Origin: an uncultured Pelagibacteraceae bacterium | Lineage (GTDB): Bacteria; Pseudomonadota; Alphaproteobacteria; Pelagibacterales; Pelagibacteraceae | Assembly (NCBI GenBank): GCA_902619925.1 | Contig: CACNFY010000004.1 | Span: 1-64,000, forward strand | Reading direction: 5' to 3' | DNA length: 64,000 nt | Part shown: positions 5,581 through 42,770 of the stretch, piece by piece | Position numbering within the stretch: position 1 is the first letter of the stretch | Layout: each line of letters begins with the position of its first letter | Translations under genes and position numbers: made by a program | Notes under the pieces: generated by a model | The model's input: only the letters and a program-made list of their open reading frames with translations | Database searches by the model: none | Told to the model about the DNA's origin: nothing

Positions 5581-7772
5581 TGGAAGTTAACGAACAAATT
5601 GCGATAGATCACGGATTAAAAATTGAAGAGTACAAAAAAATAAAAGAACTTCTAAAAAGGAATCCTAATTTAACGGAGCTAGCGATATTTTCAGCTATGT
5701 GGAACGAACACTGCTCTTACAAATCGTCTCGTAAACATTTGAAGAATTTATTTACTAAAGGAGAAAAGGTTATTCAGGGACCTGGAGAAAATGCTGGAGT
5801 TATAGATATAGGTGATGAAGACGCAATTGTATTTAAAATTGAAAGTCATAACCATCCCTCATTTATTGAACCATATCAAGGTGCCGCAACTGGTGTAGGT
5901 GGAATAATGAGAGATGTATTTACTATGGGAGCAAGGCCTATAGCAAATCTAAACTCAATTCATTTTGGATCAACACAACATAAAAAAACAAAAAATTTAT
6001 TAAGAGGTGTTGTAAAAGGAATTGGTGGATATGGTAATTGTATTGGAGTTCCTACCATAGCAGGACAAACAAATTTTGACGACTCTTATAATGGAAATAT
6101 TTTGGTAAACGCAATGACATTAGGTTTAGTCAACAAAAATAAAATTTTTTACTCAAAAGCGGCAGGTTTAAATAAGCCTGTAATATATGTTGGATCAAAA
6201 ACAGGGCGTGATGGAATTCATGGTGCAAGCATGGCATCAGCAATATTTGATGACAAAATTGAAGAAAAAAAACCAACAGTTCAAGTTGGAGACCCTTTTA
6301 CTGAAAAATTATTACTTGAAGCTTGCTTAGAGCTTATGAAAGAAGACTCTATTATATCTATTCAAGATATGGGAGCTGCAGGTTTGACCTCCTCTAGTGT
6401 TGAAATGGCATCTAAAGGAAAACTAGGTATAGAGTTAGATTTAAGTAAAGTTCCATGTAGAGAAGAAAAAATGACACCATACGAAATCATGTTGTCTGAA
6501 AGTCAAGAGAGGATGTTGATTATTTTAGAAAATGGCAAGGAGGAAAAAGCAAAAGAAATATTTGATAAATGGAACTTAGATTTTGCGGTAATAGGTAAAA
6601 CTACTGATACACAAAATTTAGAACTGCTTTTTAATCAAGAAAAAGTTGCTGAAATACCAATTGATTATTTAGCAGAAAATGCTCCAATGTACGATAGAAA
6701 ATGGAAAAAATCTAAACTTCCGCAAAAAATAGATTATCCAAAAGATTTATTTAAATCTCTTAAACTTGAAAGTTGTTTAACTAAAATAATATCTAATCCA
6801 AATATATGTGACAAACAATGGATTTGGGAACAATACGATCATACTGTAATGGGTGATACTATACAAAAACCTGGTGGTGATGCAGGAGTTGTTAGAGTTC
6901 ATGGTACTAATAAAGCAGTTGCAGCGTCAGTAGACTCCTCAGCCGTATATTGTTACGCACATCCCTTAACAGGAGGTAAGCAAGTAGTTTGTGAAAGCTG
7001 GAGAAATCTTATTTCTGTAGGATCTCAACCTGTAGCAATAACTAATTGTTTAAATTTTGGAAACCCTGAAAAAGAAAAAAATATGGGTGAATTTGTAGAA
7101 TGTGTAAATGGAATTTCTGAAGCTGCAAAGTTTTTAAATTTTCCTGTAGTTTCAGGTAATGTATCCTTTTATAACGAAACCAAAGACAAGGGTATTAAAC
7201 CAACACCTTCGATTGGTGGTGTTGGCATATTAAATGATTATAAAAATATGTTAACAATGGACCTAAAAAAAGAGGGAAATCTTATTTTGGTAATAGGAAA
7301 GACAGAGGGCCATTTAGATCAAAGTATTTTTTCAAGAATAATTTTATTAGAAAAAAAAGGCCCACCCCCAGAGGTAAATTTATTTAATGAAAAAAATAAT
7401 GGTGAGACTATTTTAAAATTGTTAGATAAAAAACTTATAATTTCATGCCACGACATTTCTGTTGGCGGTATAATTATTGCTTTATCAAAAATGTGTATTA
7501 AAGGTAATAAAGGAGTAAAAATAAATTCTCAAATAAAACTTTTAAATAAATTTAATTACTTTTTTGCCGAAGACCAGGGAAGATATATAATTGAAATTGA
7601 AAATAATAATTTTGCTATGGTAAAAAAGGTCTTGGAGGAGAATTCTGTTCATTTTGATGAATTGGGTGTTGTGGATGGTAATAAATTAACATTTAAAGAC
7701 GAATTAAATATAAGTATTCAAGATTTAAATAAAAAGTATAAATCGTGGTTAAAAAATTATATGATTAGTTAA
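5580..7772 (+). CDS. purL: FGAM synthase synthetase subunit PurL (short form)
   Basis: The 730-residue small-type PurL converts FGAR, ATP and ammonia to FGAM. It lacks the PurS-like and glutaminase domains of the large gammaproteobacterial PurL; these are supplied by purS and purQ just upstream. Visible motifs include [12 protein letters not shown] near residues 41-52, [13 protein letters not shown], the metal/nucleotide segment KIESHNHPS near 93-101, and the second AIRS-like half with [11 protein letters not shown]. Translation is coupled to purQ, and the gene is followed one base later by bolA. Confidence 0.95.
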
Positions 7773-7773
7773 T

Positions 7774-8019
7774 ATGGCAATGGATTTAAAAGAAATAGAG
7801 AGACTTATAAAAGAGACCTTTAGAGATGCTACAGTTGAAATTGAGGATTTAGCAGGTGATGGCAATCATTACTCCGCAACGGTCATTTCGTCTCAATTTC
7901 AAGGAAAGTCTAAAATTGAACAACATAAAATGGTATATAAATCTTTAAAGGGTAAAATGGGAAATGAGCTACACGCATTGGCTTTAAAAACAAGGGAAAA
8001 AAATGGATCAACAAGTTAA
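7774..8019 (+). CDS. bolA: BolA family protein
   Basis: An 81-residue BolA/IbaG-type protein. It shows the class-II-KH-like fold sequence with a GDGNHYSATVISSQF strand-turn and the signature helix with HKMVYKSLKGKMGNELHALAL. BolA proteins pair with monothiol glutaredoxins to bind a [2Fe-2S] cluster, in which the conserved His of the last helix is a ligand. The following gene is exactly such a CGFS glutaredoxin and overlaps this one by 17 bp, which strongly supports the pairing. Translation may start at the ATG at 7774 or at the second ATG two codons later. Confidence 0.9.
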   Translation: MAMDLKEIERLIKETFRDATVEIEDLAGDGNHYSATVISSQFQGKSKIEQHKMVYKSLKGKMGNELHALALKTREKNGSTS

Positions 8020-8335
8020 AGATTTAATAACAAATGAAATAAACGATAATGAAATTTGTTTATTCATGAAAGGAACACCAGAAGCACCTCAATGTGGTTT
8101 TTCTATGGCTGTTGCTAATATATTAAAAGTTTTAGAAGTAAAATTTAAAGGTGTTAATGTTTTAGAAAGTCAAAATCTCCGTGAGGGAATTAAAGAATAT
8201 AGTGAATGGCCAACTATACCACAACTTTATGTAAAAAAAGAATTTGTTGGCGGTTGTGATATTGTTAAGGAGATGTTTGAAAATGGAGAGTTAAAAAATC
8301 TTTTAGATCAAAAATCTATTAGTTATAAAAAATAA
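8003..8335 (+). CDS. grxD: Monothiol glutaredoxin (Grx4/CGFS type)
   Basis: A 110-residue monothiol glutaredoxin with the MKGTPEAPQCGFS active-site loop near residues 22-34, the WPTIPQLYVKKEFVGGCD glutathione-binding segment and normal family length. Such proteins carry and transfer [2Fe-2S] clusters in the cytosol. The reading frame overlaps the end of bolA, so the BolA-Grx partners are made together. A convergent methyltransferase gene begins its 3' end one base later, with no recognisable terminator between them. Confidence 0.94.
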   Translation: MDQQVKDLITNEINDNEICLFMKGTPEAPQCGFSMAVANILKVLEVKFKGVNVLESQNLREGIKEYSEWPTIPQLYVKKEFVGGCDIVKEMFENGELKNLLDQKSISYKK

Positions 8336-38457: not shown

Positions 38458-39057
38458 ATGCAACCAGCATACTATGAAAACTTAGAAGAAATTCAAAATA
38501 AGTATTGGGCAATGCTTAATGATGCTGTTACTAATCGTAACTCACCTTTTAGAATTCCGGTATTTATTTGTGCAGATCAAAATGAAATTGATGGTAGAAT
38601 TGTTGTGCTTAGAAAATCAGATAGAGAAAATAATTTATTACAATTTCATACTGATTTTAGATCATCAAAGATAAATATATTAAAGAAAAATAATAATGCA
38701 TCTTTAGTTTTCTATGATAAAGAGGAAAAAATTCAATTAAGGGTAAAAGTTGATTGTATAATAAATAATAAAAATTCAATAACAGACGAGTCTTGGAAAA
38801 AAACACAACATATAAGTAGAAGGTGTTATTTAACAGACGATCCACCCGGGACAATTTCTAGTGATCCAACATCAGGAATGATCTCAAAATTAGAGGATTT
38901 TGATTACACAATGGAACAAAGTGAGGAGGGATATAAAAATTTCACAGTAATACAATGCAAAATTAAATCAGTTGAATGGTTATATCTTGCTGCAAAAGGT
39001 CATCGTAGAGCTAAATTTGACATAGAAAAAAAACAAACAAGTTGGTTGGTCCCGTAA
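38458..39057 (+). CDS. Pyridoxamine 5'-phosphate oxidase-like flavoprotein
   Basis: A 199-residue protein of the FMN-binding split-barrel superfamily. The GRIVVLRKSDRENNLLQFHTD region near residues 42-62 matches the FMN-phosphate-binding strands of PdxH-like proteins, and the C-terminal WLYLAAKGHRRAKFD segment corresponds to the PdxH dimer tail. It is not a clear PdxH because the pyridoxal-phosphate-binding tail is divergent, so the activity is uncertain. It follows the dehydrogenase gene by 6 bp and overlaps the truncated carbonic anhydrase start. Confidence 0.78.
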   Translation: MQPAYYENLEEIQNKYWAMLNDAVTNRNSPFRIPVFICADQNEIDGRIVVLRKSDRENNLLQFHTDFRSSKINILKKNNNASLVFYDKEEKIQLRVKVDCIINNKNSITDESWKKTQHISRRCYLTDDPPGTISSDPTSGMISKLEDFDYTMEQSEEGYKNFTVIQCKIKSVEWLYLAAKGHRRAKFDIEKKQTSWLVP

Positions 39058-39383
39058 TGAAAAAATATGAAGCAATGGTTTTATCTTGTATTGATCCAAG
39101 ATTTCAGCCAAAAGTATATAAATATTTAAGAAGCAAAAATCTAGTTGGTAAATATAGTTCATTTACAATTGCTGGTGCTGGAATTGGTGTGACTCATAAA
39201 AAATTTAAAAAATGGCATTCCACATTTTGGGATAATTTTGATGCTTCAATCAAATTACATAAAATAAACAAGCTGATAGTAATTAATCATCAAGACTGTG
39301 GTGCAGCAAAAATAGCAAATAAAGAAAAAAAATTTAATTTTAAATTTTTTTACTTAATTGTTATTCTAAAGCCCTACCAGTAA
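39057..39383 (+). pseudogene. Beta-carbonic anhydrase-like gene, truncated at its 3' end
   Basis: From the ATG at 39057 the product starts MKKYEAMVLSCIDPRF and shows the beta-class zinc-site motifs: Cys with Asp-x-Arg in CIDPR, and His-x-x-Cys in HQDCGA near residues 81-86. Homologues continue for roughly another 100 residues, but here the frame ends within about 25 residues of the second zinc motif in an AT-rich tail, and its last 23 bases overlap the end of the convergent FecR-domain gene. The missing part would include the helices needed for dimerisation, so the gene is probably dead. The break marks the left edge of the FecR/barrel pair. Confidence 0.65.
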
Positions 39384-40896
39384 TGACTGCTGATCCCTCT
39401 AATCTCTCAATGGATTGAACATATGCCGCCTCTCCAGCTGGTGCTGCTGTTGCATCATGTGCTCCTTCAAAAATCATAGTTCCTAGACCTGCAAGACCAT
39501 CAGAGCCAACAGTTGTAAATTTGCCGTACTGAAATACATCTAACGATGCATCTTCATTACTTGTGTCATGGTTATACTTATCCATTAATTGCTGTGTAGA
39601 TCCAGAATTTAGTGTTAAAGAACTACTCTGCAAAGTATTTGCAACTCTGATAAGTGAGGTGCATGCATCAGCTGGACATTCGCCCCCGCCACTATCAATC
39701 AATGTATCAAGAGATGTACTTCCATCTGACCCCAAGGCCATAGCAACAGAGGCAACAACAGGTATTGTTGTTAATGTAACAGTTGGCGTGGTATAACTGT
39801 GGTTAACAGTTGATGCACCTTTTAATGTTACTTTAGAAAATACATCTGCACTAATTTCTTTTTTATTAAAGTTTACGTAAACTTTTGCTCTACCCTGTTG
39901 GGTTGCTCCATCCTCAAAAACATTTTTGTCAGAACTATATGTTAATCCGTTCGAACCAGTTGTAACTTTTGTAAGATCCATCCAACCTGAGTCATATAAA
40001 ATAGTATTTTGATCTAAGGTTCTTACATAATTTTCATTATCTGTTACAACAATATTTTCCTGTAACTTATCCATTGCAACTAAAATTTCTTTTGATTCAG
40101 ATCCAGTTGATAAATCTGACAATATTTCTGCGGCACCCTCGTCGCTTTTTAATTCAAATTTTTCTGCTGTTAATTTAATATCTTCCTTTAAATCTTTTGA
40201 GCTTAATAAATTTGACGTTAAACTATTAGAATTATCAATTATATTAATTGAATTCAAAGCTGAATGACTCATTGATGCCGACATCTGTTCTATAAAGTCT
40301 GGATTAGTAGGTGAAGCTATAGATACTACATTTGTAATCATAGCTTGAAAGCCAGGATTGGTTATATTAGTAACATTTGTTCCATCTGTTACTTGAACAT
40401 TTCCAGGTTCCATACCAAGTTTATTTTCAGGTCCTGGGCCTAATAATAATATTGTGCTCTCCTTTTTGTCATTCGATGAAACAAGGAACTCTGTCCCTCT
40501 TACACCCAAAGAACCATTAGGTATTTTAATTTCTAAATTATCTGGATTTTTTTCACTAATTTTACCTGAAATAGTTTTTACAATACCAGATTTTATATTT
40601 GTTACAAAATTTCCATCATTTGATTTTGGATCATATATAAAATCATCAATTGTCAATTCAGTATTTTCACCAAGTGTCATAACAGTTTCGTCCAAAAATA
40701 ATATTTGGGCATTTGATTTAGAGCTAACAATGATTGTATCACCATAAAATATTTTTGATCCATTTATCAATTTTTCATTTTTTTGATTGTCAATATTTCC
40801 AATCGCGGCTCCAATTACACCAATAAATTCATTGCTAAAAGATTTATTAGTTAAAGATATAAATGCAAATAAGAAAACAATAAATTTTTTAATCAT
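39361..40896 (-). CDS. Secreted FecR-domain protein with C-terminal beta-rich domain (candidate Slam cargo)
   Basis: A 511-residue protein with a signal peptide of about 21 residues (FIVFLFAFISLT, cleavage near NKSFS-NEF) and no lipobox Cys. Residues 24-160 form a FecR domain: GDTIIVSSKSNAQILFLDE, MTLGENTELTIDDF and SLGVRGTEF are typical. No transmembrane helix follows, so this is not a classical anti-sigma FecR. The C-terminal 200 residues are Gly/Ser/Thr-rich beta-sequence with RAKVYVNFNKKEISADVF and a Cys pair, reminiscent of TbpB-like barrel domains. The upstream barrel gene overlaps it by 8 bp. Function unproven; export to the surface by the partner is my inference. Confidence 0.7.
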   Translation of the reverse strand: MIKKFIVFLFAFISLTNKSFSNEFIGVIGAAIGNIDNQKNEKLINGSKIFYGDTIIVSSKSNAQILFLDETVMTLGENTELTIDDFIYDPKSNDGNFVTNIKSGIVKTISGKISEKNPDNLEIKIPNGSLGVRGTEFLVSSNDKKESTILLLGPGPENKLGMEPGNVQVTDGTNVTNITNPGFQAMITNVVSIASPTNPDFIEQMSASMSHSALNSINIIDNSNSLTSNLLSSKDLKEDIKLTAEKFELKSDEGAAEILSDLSTGSESKEILVAMDKLQENIVVTDNENYVRTLDQNTILYDSGWMDLTKVTTGSNGLTYSSDKNVFEDGATQQGRAKVYVNFNKKEISADVFSKVTLKGASTVNHSYTTPTVTLTTIPVVASVAMALGSDGSTSLDTLIDSGGGECPADACTSLIRVANTLQSSSLTLNSGSTQQLMDKYNHDTSNEDASLDVFQYGKFTTVGSDGLAGLGTMIFEGAHDATAAPAGEAAYVQSIERLEGSAVITGRALE

Positions 40897-42247
40897 TTAA
40901 ATTAATCCTTTTAGATAGTCCTATCATTTTAAAAGATCTTTTTATCTCATAACTGGATATCGTAGAGTTTACATTAGATTCTCTTAAGCTTAAATAGTAA
41001 TAAATATTATTATCTTTATTAATTTTTTTTAAAAACGGTAAAATTTGATTTATATCTCCTCTTAAATTTAACGTTGTAACTAAACTAGTATCCTCTCTAT
41101 CTGTTAAGGATGATACTGTAATTTTTCTTGAAATATAATCATTTGTTAAATGAGTAGCTGATACTGTGAATGTTCCTAATGAAAAAATCTTAGAAATAGA
41201 TAAATTTAAACCATTAGACTCATAACTATCATAATTTTTCGAATGTTGGATATCACTAAATAGTAATTTTGAACTTATTTGTATTTTATCAGATAAATTA
41301 TAATTTAATCTAATATTAGCAGAATATATTTCACTATTATTCAGTTCTCCCGCGTCAAGAAAAGTCTGATTTCCTTGAGAGTCTACTGGCGAGGATCGTG
41401 AATGATATCTATTATCATTAAAACTTACAGCATAATTAAAATTTAATTTATCATTAAATATATAAGTGTTATTTAAACCAATACCCTTACTTTGATAGTC
41501 CTCTTGCATTCTGTAATTAAATTTATTGTAAAAAATGTATGGAGAAAAATAATGATTTTTATATGCCTTTAAGTAACTTAAAGAAGATGAATGAACATCG
41601 CTTTCACCTTTAAATTTTTTGTTATTTGTGTTTATATTTAAACCAAAATTCATAAATAGAGACGAACTTTGATCTATCATTCTACCGATGGTAAGTGAGC
41701 TTCCTTTTGTAAAAGTTTTATCATATTGAAGTGTTAATCTACTATCATTTGCAGGAAAAGGTACCTCAGAGTCGGTAGAGCCATTGCTTTTAGCAAGCAT
41801 CCCTGATTTAGTTTTTCCACTTATATTGTCCTCCTCAGTTTGAGAATACTTAAGATCAATATATGCAATCCACTTACTTGTTTTGTTTTTATCAACAGTT
41901 TTATCTGTTAATAATTCTGATATTAATTGTTTTGTTTCTTTCGTTGTATTTGGATCTTCAAATATCGTTTTAACTAAAAAATCAATTTTTACCTTGGAGT
42001 CCATCTTCAATAAGATAGATATTAAATATAATTTGATATCTGAATTTTTTGGATAAAGCGAACTAAGTCTTTCTAATGTAGCAATTGTTAATTTAATGTT
42101 TCCTGCTTCCTCTTGTTGCTTTGCAAAATTTAAATTTAACTCTAAATCTGTTGGATTATCTAATATCTCTTTATAAGTAATTATTGAAGAAATTGCTTTA
42201 GGTTGAAATAAAAAGATAAATATTATTAAAACAATAAACTTAAACAT
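40889..42247 (-). CDS. TPR plus beta-barrel outer-membrane protein (Slam/DUF560-like)
   Basis: A 452-residue protein with a signal peptide (FIVLIIFIFLFQPKAISS), then two to three TPR-like helices around residues 28-90 (LNLNFAKQQEEAGNIKLTIATLERL), then about 330 residues of alternating strands ending in RSFKMIGLSKRINLND. This layout, periplasmic TPR followed by an outer-membrane barrel with an Arg-rich last strand, is that of Slam (surface lipoprotein assembly modulator, type XI secretion). It overlaps the FecR-domain gene by 8 bp, so the pair is one transcript, as exporter and cargo genes usually are. A generic barrel protein is the alternative. Confidence 0.62.
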   Translation of the reverse strand: MFKFIVLIIFIFLFQPKAISSIITYKEILDNPTDLELNLNFAKQQEEAGNIKLTIATLERLSSLYPKNSDIKLYLISILLKMDSKVKIDFLVKTIFEDPNTTKETKQLISELLTDKTVDKNKTSKWIAYIDLKYSQTEEDNISGKTKSGMLAKSNGSTDSEVPFPANDSRLTLQYDKTFTKGSSLTIGRMIDQSSSLFMNFGLNINTNNKKFKGESDVHSSSLSYLKAYKNHYFSPYIFYNKFNYRMQEDYQSKGIGLNNTYIFNDKLNFNYAVSFNDNRYHSRSSPVDSQGNQTFLDAGELNNSEIYSANIRLNYNLSDKIQISSKLLFSDIQHSKNYDSYESNGLNLSISKIFSLGTFTVSATHLTNDYISRKITVSSLTDREDTSLVTTLNLRGDINQILPFLKKINKDNNIYYYLSLRESNVNSTISSYEIKRSFKMIGLSKRINLND

Positions 42248-42257
42248 CTATCTTGAT

Positions 42258-42770
42258 TTAAAAGACTGTCTTTAAATATTTTTTCCAATTATTTTGATAT
42301 CTTATCGCGTTTTGTTTCATTGCTTCAATTTCATCTTTTGAAACTTGTCTTACTATTTTTCCCGGTGAACCCATAACCAATGAATTGTCCGGTATTATTT
42401 TATTTTCAGTAATTAATGCTCTCGCACCAATTAGACAATTTTTACCAATTTTAGATCCATTTAACAGCACCGCTCCTATTCCAATTAAACTATTATCATC
42501 AATAGAACAACCATGTAACATCACTAAGTGACCCACAGTCACATTTTTACCAACTTTTAATGGATAGCCTGGATCTGTGTGGAGAACACAACTATCTTGA
42601 ACATTTGAGCCTTCGCCAATATGTATATTTTCAATATCTCCCCTTAAAGTAGCATTAAACCAAACACTAGTATTTTTTTCTAATGTAACATCACCGATAA
42701 CTACCGCATTCGGAGCTACCCAATTTTCACCAGCATTTTTTGGTTTTTTATCTTCCAAATCGTAAAACAT
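42258..42770 (-). CDS. Gamma-carbonic anhydrase family protein (YrdA-like)
   Basis: A 170-residue left-handed beta-helix protein with hexapeptide repeats. The zinc-ligand pattern is seen as the His in SCVLHTDPG near residue 64 and two His in VTVGHLVMLHGC near 81-86, and the N-terminal APNAVVIGDVTLEKNTSVWFNATLRGD is typical of YrdA/PaaY/CaiE-type trimers. Many of these bind zinc but have weak or unknown carbonic anhydrase activity. It sits just beyond the FecR/barrel pair, whose other edge truncates a beta-carbonic anhydrase. Confidence 0.87.
   Translation of the reverse strand: MFYDLEDKKPKNAGENWVAPNAVVIGDVTLEKNTSVWFNATLRGDIENIHIGEGSNVQDSCVLHTDPGYPLKVGKNVTVGHLVMLHGCSIDDNSLIGIGAVLLNGSKIGKNCLIGARALITENKIIPDNSLVMGSPGKIVRQVSKDEIEAMKQNAIRYQNNWKKYLKTVF

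Follow-up and report, generated by a model that had tools for sequence, protein, structure and literature searches.

The window analysed here is a stretch of 64,000 nucleotides from the genome of an uncultured SAR11 bacterium (Pelagibacteraceae; genome G000, 1.1 Mb in 30 contigs). It carries two overlapping genes on the reverse strand, the first encoding an outer-membrane TPR and beta-barrel protein related to the Slam (DUF560) exporters of type XI secretion and the second a protein with a FecR domain. The reading preferred here, to which we allow an even chance of being right, is that the pair represents a type XI-related exporter and its FecR partner, in which the C-terminus of the partner would be exposed outside the cell and the FecR domain would remain in the periplasm and report to a receptor with a CHASE2 domain. 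An initial annotation of this DNA had proposed a Slam-like exporter with a FecR-domain cargo. That idea appears largely right at the level of the family and incomplete, and what is new would be the tie of a Slam-related clade of exporters to FecR and CHASE2.

Purifying selection acts on both genes (ratio of nonsynonymous to synonymous substitutions, dN/dS, about 0.12-0.18; dN 0.13-0.19, dS about 1.0-1.3) and the pair is therefore regarded as real genes and not as chance open reading frames. The barrel and FecR genes occur in the same order in every orthologous locus for which both flanks are available, and the 8-bp overlap given in the initial annotation was borne out in the window and is retained by nearly all orthologous pairs having both genes intact.

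Relationship of the barrel to the Slam exporters

A barrel profile free of SAR11 sequences, built from 12 barrels, reaches the window barrel at an E-value of 9.7e-19 over residues 22-434. Searched against 151 SAR11 open reading frames, its matches are confined to barrels of the family of the window barrel. In a set of 30 SlipAM loci of Alphaproteobacteria, it picks up the barrel at 29. The curated cut-off of the Pfam family SlipAM is passed by four relatives outside SAR11 (loci L157, L129, L143 and L120, with 52.3, 36.7, 35.1 and 29.9 bits, respectively), the match at L157 spanning positions 4-285 of 288. Family profiles align the window-type barrels to SlipAM across both the TPR and the barrel regions (hhalign; profile A3 includes the window barrel). 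In a tree of 46 barrels, 27 FecR/CHASE2-linked barrels, including that of the window, are split from 19 ordinary SlipAM barrels by one 100/100 branch, two of the 27 (L124 and L181) being classed as linked by CHASE2, with no FecR seen there. These comparisons support the placement of the window barrel in the SlipAM/DUF560 superfamily, and the exporter call stands at the level of the family, export itself being putative.

An AlphaFold2 model of the exporter, based on 15 close orthologues (mean predicted local distance difference test score, pLDDT, 65), shows the helices and the 14 strands listed in Table 1 and agrees at moderate confidence with the TPR and beta-barrel layout originally described. 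Foldseek matches this model best to outer-membrane barrels in the PDB, with the porins OmpG (top match; TM score 0.71 by target) and CymA leading the ranking. This ranking, together with the missing Pfam barrel match in the window protein, would favour a porin for small molecules that has no tie to secretion, the FecR protein being an accessory component of the envelope. Such a porin, already disfavoured, is considered very improbable, as the family profiles tie the window protein to SlipAM in its TPR part as well as in its barrel part and the likeness to OmpG, which was rejected as a true relative, is generic for 14-strand barrels (about 8% identity).

The FecR domain and the C-termini of the partner proteins

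The signal peptide and the FecR domain ascribed to the second protein at the outset were both recovered, as both window proteins open with a signal-peptide-like stretch on direct reading and the FecR domain scores 40.5 bits against PF04773 (cut-off 24). A reading of the sequence likewise agrees with the absence of a lipobox cysteine and of a membrane helix. When 13 FecR domains of these proteins were combined into a profile, its sole match in the PDB was the antifreeze protein 5ix9 (E-value 4.9e-9), which we take to be the region responsible for retention in MpAFP, an adhesin of Marinomonas. The NCBIfam model for LapA retention (NF033682) matches 17 of 26 FecR proteins at E-values up to 0.1, under the cut-off of 50 bits where inspected (16.7 bits for the window protein). 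RTX repeats, present in four of the 26 surveyed proteins, fit a general role of the FecR domain at the N-terminus of exported proteins. Large FecR proteins (1000-1400 amino acids) were seen close to CHASE2 genes at L126, L128, L130 and L138, which together with the RTX repeats suggests FecR-headed adhesins of type I secretion in the vicinity of CHASE2. In a SAR11 genome with no detected CHASE2 or barrel, a FecR domain lies within an open frame of 1838 amino acids (L069; G001:C16:9665-9958).

The nature of the C-terminus is clearest among the relatives. A profile of the C-terminal regions of six FecR proteins from relatives with TbpB-like C-termini finds in the PDB only TbpB (1.6e-8), NHBA/GNA2132, LbpB and fHbp, which are Slam-type surface lipoproteins, and also matches proteins without FecR that are encoded next to eight ordinary SlipAM exporters. 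Weak TbpB_B_D matches lie at or near the C-terminus of the FecR protein at L086, L127, L136 and L157. Since the FecR proteins of some relatives end in a barrel of the TbpB/NHBA/LbpB type, FecR-domain Slam cargo exists. The TbpB-like character suggested earlier for the cargo C-terminus thus holds for homologues; for the window protein neither it nor the expected 8-strand barrel found direct support, the AlphaFold2 model on 15 close orthologues being poor (pLDDT 38) and the PDB profile search empty. The fold given by this model was set aside as unusable, and a TbpB-like reading of tails devoid of the WG motif, in SAR11 and in other relatives, was rejected, the PDB profile yielding noise only. 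A short motif of the window cargo, V-N-F-x-x-K-x-I, resembles one in other cargos, and a motif of this general form is present in 13 of 16 cargos (chance 1-2%), which has supporting value only, the motif having been picked after the sequences were seen; the hhalign anchors obtained for it are weak.

Comparison of the sequences shows that within the partner protein FecR stays constant and the C-terminus is exchangeable, because the tail of a paralogous FecR protein in the window genome, the FecR protein of 906 amino acids at L042 and the split genes of genome G010 all differ. In G010 (L034:4692-6269) the FecR and the C-terminal parts, fused in orthologues, are encoded by separate genes whose products both have a signal peptide, the second gene beginning directly past the stop codon of the first. 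The tail of the paralogous protein (L045:7366-8682) and of its relatives (L036-L044) is very basic, exceeds 100 residues and carries KKK/AVKKK repeats. The signal of NsrA in Sinorhizobium meliloti is a basic ribosomal protein (PMC7529298), and one may speculate that the basic tail is a tethered basic ligand.

Linkage with CHASE2 receptors

Among 61 related genomes the barrel is present in 13, and CHASE2 was found in 12 of these and in none of the 48 lacking the barrel (Fisher test, 7e-12, and 7e-9 within the genus, values that overstate independence as the genomes are related). Of 16 genomes with close orthologues, 12 have exactly one CHASE2, the remaining four being small assemblies (700-800 kb). 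A gene encoding CHASE2 and SpoIIE domains lies directly upstream of barrel and FecR at L017, L019-L022 and in G010 (L034), and a CHASE2-PP2C gene directly upstream of related pairs at L042, L144 and L152.

CHASE2 is absent from the neighbourhood of the window pair, and the only copy in the window genome lies on contig C2 within a paralogous operon (L045). The barrel of this operon is 26% identical to that of the window; its FecR gene (FecR2) is followed by one whose product combines a CHASE2 domain with a SpoIIE (PP2C phosphatase) domain, and HATPase_c_2 and STAS genes are located upstream on the opposite strand. Genomes in which CHASE2 adjoins the first pair, orthologous to that of the window (G061, G063-G066), have one FecR gene each. 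Those in which this pair is an orphan (G067-G070, G072, G074 and G075) have two, the second adjoining the single CHASE2 in all except G075, and the window genome is of this latter type. The initial annotation had regarded the FecR protein as a possible surface sensor or ligand binder, overlooking the CHASE2 receptor and the paralogous operon. Because of these two, a signalling system is indicated rather than a lone surface ligand binder.

The association extends beyond SAR11. CHASE2 is present in 149 of 289 Alphaproteobacteria, and 40 CHASE2 loci, mostly high-scoring matches and hence a non-random sample, were examined. Of the 38 outside SAR11, 11 have a TPR-barrel, 10 of them with FecR as well; at the eleventh (L124), FecR was not seen within the examined stretch. 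TPR-barrel, FecR and CHASE2-cyclase genes stand in a row on pAMI5 of Paracoccus aminophilus. Among the CHASE2 proteins scanned, nine are adenylate/guanylate cyclases and the one of the SAR11 family is a phosphatase. FecR also adjoins CHASE2 at loci where the Slam barrel was not found. A match on a plasmid of S. meliloti is a CHASE2 locus with a FecR gene and no annotated barrel, distinct from NsrA.

The distribution bears on two further explanations. In one, the exporter would be an ordinary one of type XI, its cargo unlipidated and either displayed on the surface or secreted, FecR only a structural module and CHASE2 merely a regulator of expression. This explanation would be in keeping with the SlipAM membership, the cargo barrels, the window copy having no adjacent CHASE2 and the presence of the pair in a genome (G009) with no CHASE2 detected. 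It is nevertheless judged quite improbable, given that FecR is constant as the C-termini vary, that the linked exporters and CHASE2 loci form one clade and that FecR neighbours CHASE2 even in the apparent absence of a Slam barrel. The main rival, which we hold to be rather unlikely, treats the barrel as a receptor with nothing exported; a ligand on the outer loops would act through the periplasmic TPR upon a wholly periplasmic FecR protein and from there upon CHASE2, as is supposed for NsrA in S. meliloti. The CHASE2 linkage of barrel and FecR, the precedent of NsrA, a barrel of the outer membrane that serves CHASE2 cyclases as their receptor (PMC7529298, PMC13001267), the FecR partners with no beta domain and the separate proteins of G010 speak for such a receptor. 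It is opposed by the kinship of the barrel with SlipAM proteins, which act as translocons in the cases studied (PMC9090332, PMC8406197), and by the several FecR partners ending in Slam-cargo barrels, which would be superfluous for a pure receptor.

The CHASE2-barrel-FecR operons of SAR11 (L017:1813-2577 and 7636-8136; L045:767-5590) sit among type IV pilus/type II secretion genes, their neighbours including prepilin-peptidase-like, pilin-like, GspE-like and GspF-like proteins; an autotransporter adhesin of SAR11 has been reported beside genes of the same kind (PMC12636525). A protein of 430 amino acids with GAF-like and SpoIIE-type phosphatase domains is encoded upstream of one such operon on the opposite strand (L017:352-1644), and this gene is retained in G009 also.

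The features of the window pair are listed in Table 1. A hexapeptide-repeat (gamma carbonic anhydrase-like) gene (42258-42770) lies 10 bp upstream of the exporter gene on the same strand, in the place where relatives have CHASE2, and may be co-transcribed with it. At the other end, a carbonic-anhydrase-like open reading frame (39042-39383; Pro_CA_2, positions 2-91 of 125) shares 23 bp with the end of the FecR gene; its 3' end looks shortened, possibly marking a rearrangement boundary.

Table 1. Positions of the exporter and FecR genes and of their predicted features in the window
Feature	Position	Strand	Basis
Slam-related outer-membrane TPR and 14-strand beta-barrel protein, 452 amino acids, putative type XI exporter of the FecR/CHASE2-linked clade	40889..42247	-	
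Periplasmic TPR helices, exporter residues 25-113	41909..42175	-	Secondary structure of the model; alignment of profiles with the TPR part of SlipAM-positive relatives
14-strand beta-barrel, exporter residues 126-449	40901..41872	-	AlphaFold2 model; Foldseek
8-bp overlap ATGATTAA of exporter stop and cargo start, likely translational coupling	40889..40896	-	Conserved in orthologues
FecR-domain protein of 511 amino acids with a Sec signal peptide and without a lipobox; putative cargo and partner in signalling	39361..40896	-	
Signal peptide predicted in the FecR protein, roughly residues 1-22	40831..40896	-	Direct reading
FecR domain, residues 53-146; akin to LapA-type retention modules when taken with the residues directly preceding it	40459..40740	-	PF04773; PDB 5ix9
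C-terminal beta-rich region, FecR-protein residues 290-511, candidate exported domain	39361..40029	-	
Motif VNFNKKEI, FecR-protein residues 341-348	39853..39876	-	Form common to barrel domains of other FecR cargos (VNFGTRTV, IDFSARTI)

Proposed signalling route and comparison with known systems

In the exporter-partner arrangement favoured here, the FecR protein would first be exported by Sec, after which the barrel would take its C-terminal part through the outer membrane, and the FecR domain, akin to LapA retention modules, would fold and stay in the periplasm, held at the TPR side of the exporter. An outside event, either the binding of a ligand or the completion of export, would then alter the contact of FecR with the periplasmic CHASE2 domain, and CHASE2 would set the cytoplasmic output, a SpoIIE-type PP2C phosphatase in SAR11 and an adenylate cyclase in other Alphaproteobacteria. 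The phosphatase of SAR11 would probably have as its target the STAS/HATPase partner-switch pair, whose genes lie near the second operon, and the window pair, having no CHASE2 of its own, may use that of the paralogous pair in trans. In a more general form, which we offer tentatively and regard as somewhat doubtful, such systems would constitute a class of trans-envelope signalling in which a FecR protein, stalled by a Slam-type exporter, spans the outer membrane. FecR would be the periplasmic retention module and the exported domain the sensor of the outside, and FecR would report the state to CHASE2 receptors with interchangeable outputs (PP2C phosphatase or adenylate cyclase).

Several observations weigh against the proposed arrangement. 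The window barrel taken alone gives no match to PF04575 (SlipAM) at E<1, where the initial annotation had expected one, so that its Slam/DUF560 assignment holds for the family (profiles, tree, TPR and 14 strands) and not as a PF04575-positive window protein; a Pfam search returns a doubtful TPR-like match only, and Pfam, NCBIfam and PDB searches with the single window proteins gave nothing beyond FecR. The comparison of the window cargo C-terminus with TbpB-like domains (hmmsearch, hhalign and PDB profile) yielded nothing significant. The paralogous FecR protein on contig C2 has a Lys-rich tail and no beta domain, the split proteins of G010 imply that a covalent retention anchor is not universal, and CHASE2 was not found in G009, which has the pair in a genome 92% complete.

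How an event at the outer membrane reaches a CHASE2 receptor is largely open, and what CHASE2 domains recognise is stated to be not known (PMC5192318). The gene linkage proposes a physical chain from exported domain to FecR to CHASE2 which, if true, would give CHASE2 a defined input and add sensing to the display function of type XI secretion. It would also mean that a surface-sensing device is retained by some marine SAR11 bacteria whose genomes are very small. The chain and the proposed dedication of an exporter clade to signalling are testable in culturable Alphaproteobacteria such as Paracoccus.

Among known systems, the FecA-FecR-FecI system has the FecR domain name and the family PF04773 in common with the window protein, which differs in having a signal peptide only, with no transmembrane helix or anti-sigma part; neither FecI or another sigma factor nor a TonB-dependent receptor is present beside the FecR gene at the locus. 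LapA-type modules remain periplasmic while the remainder of the adhesin is exported (PMC13090378, PMC6890996). The resemblance lies in the position at the N-terminus of an exported protein and in the N-terminal part matched by the FecR profile (NF033682; MpAFP, PDB 5ix9), whereas the window protein falls under the NCBIfam cut-off, and the type I secretion and LapG cleavage of the LapA system are not in evidence here, no search for the cleavage motif having been made.

FecR and CHASE2 are encoded together in a gene cluster of Campylobacterota, with a CHASE2 cyclase, a phosphodiesterase, a FecR outer-membrane protein and a TPR protein (PMC9239204), and in a Burkholderia operon of FecR-LysM with a CHASE2 kinase (PMC5192318); the available parts of these two papers draw no tie to Slam exporters or retention modules. 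No open-access paper joining Slam with FecR or CHASE2 was found, subscription literature lying outside the search. NsrA serves the CHASE2 cyclases of S. meliloti (PMC7529298, PMC13001267) and likewise links an outer-membrane barrel with CHASE2 inner-membrane receptors. Compared by description only, it is one protein with the barrel at residues 600-1200, whereas the present barrel is related to Slam and is a different protein from the one with FecR; the output in SAR11, moreover, is a phosphatase.

Type XI secretion, defined by DUF560 proteins and TbpB-type cargos (PMC8406197) and with translocon activity (PMC9090332), shares with the present pair the N-terminal TPR followed by a 14-strand outer-membrane barrel, the adjacent cargo gene, relatives over the Pfam cut-off and homologous cargos ending in TbpB-type barrels. 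The FecR-linked barrels differ in forming a separate clade, the window member of which lies under Pfam detection, and in a cargo that has a FecR domain and no lipobox, encoded in an operon that often includes a CHASE2 receptor.

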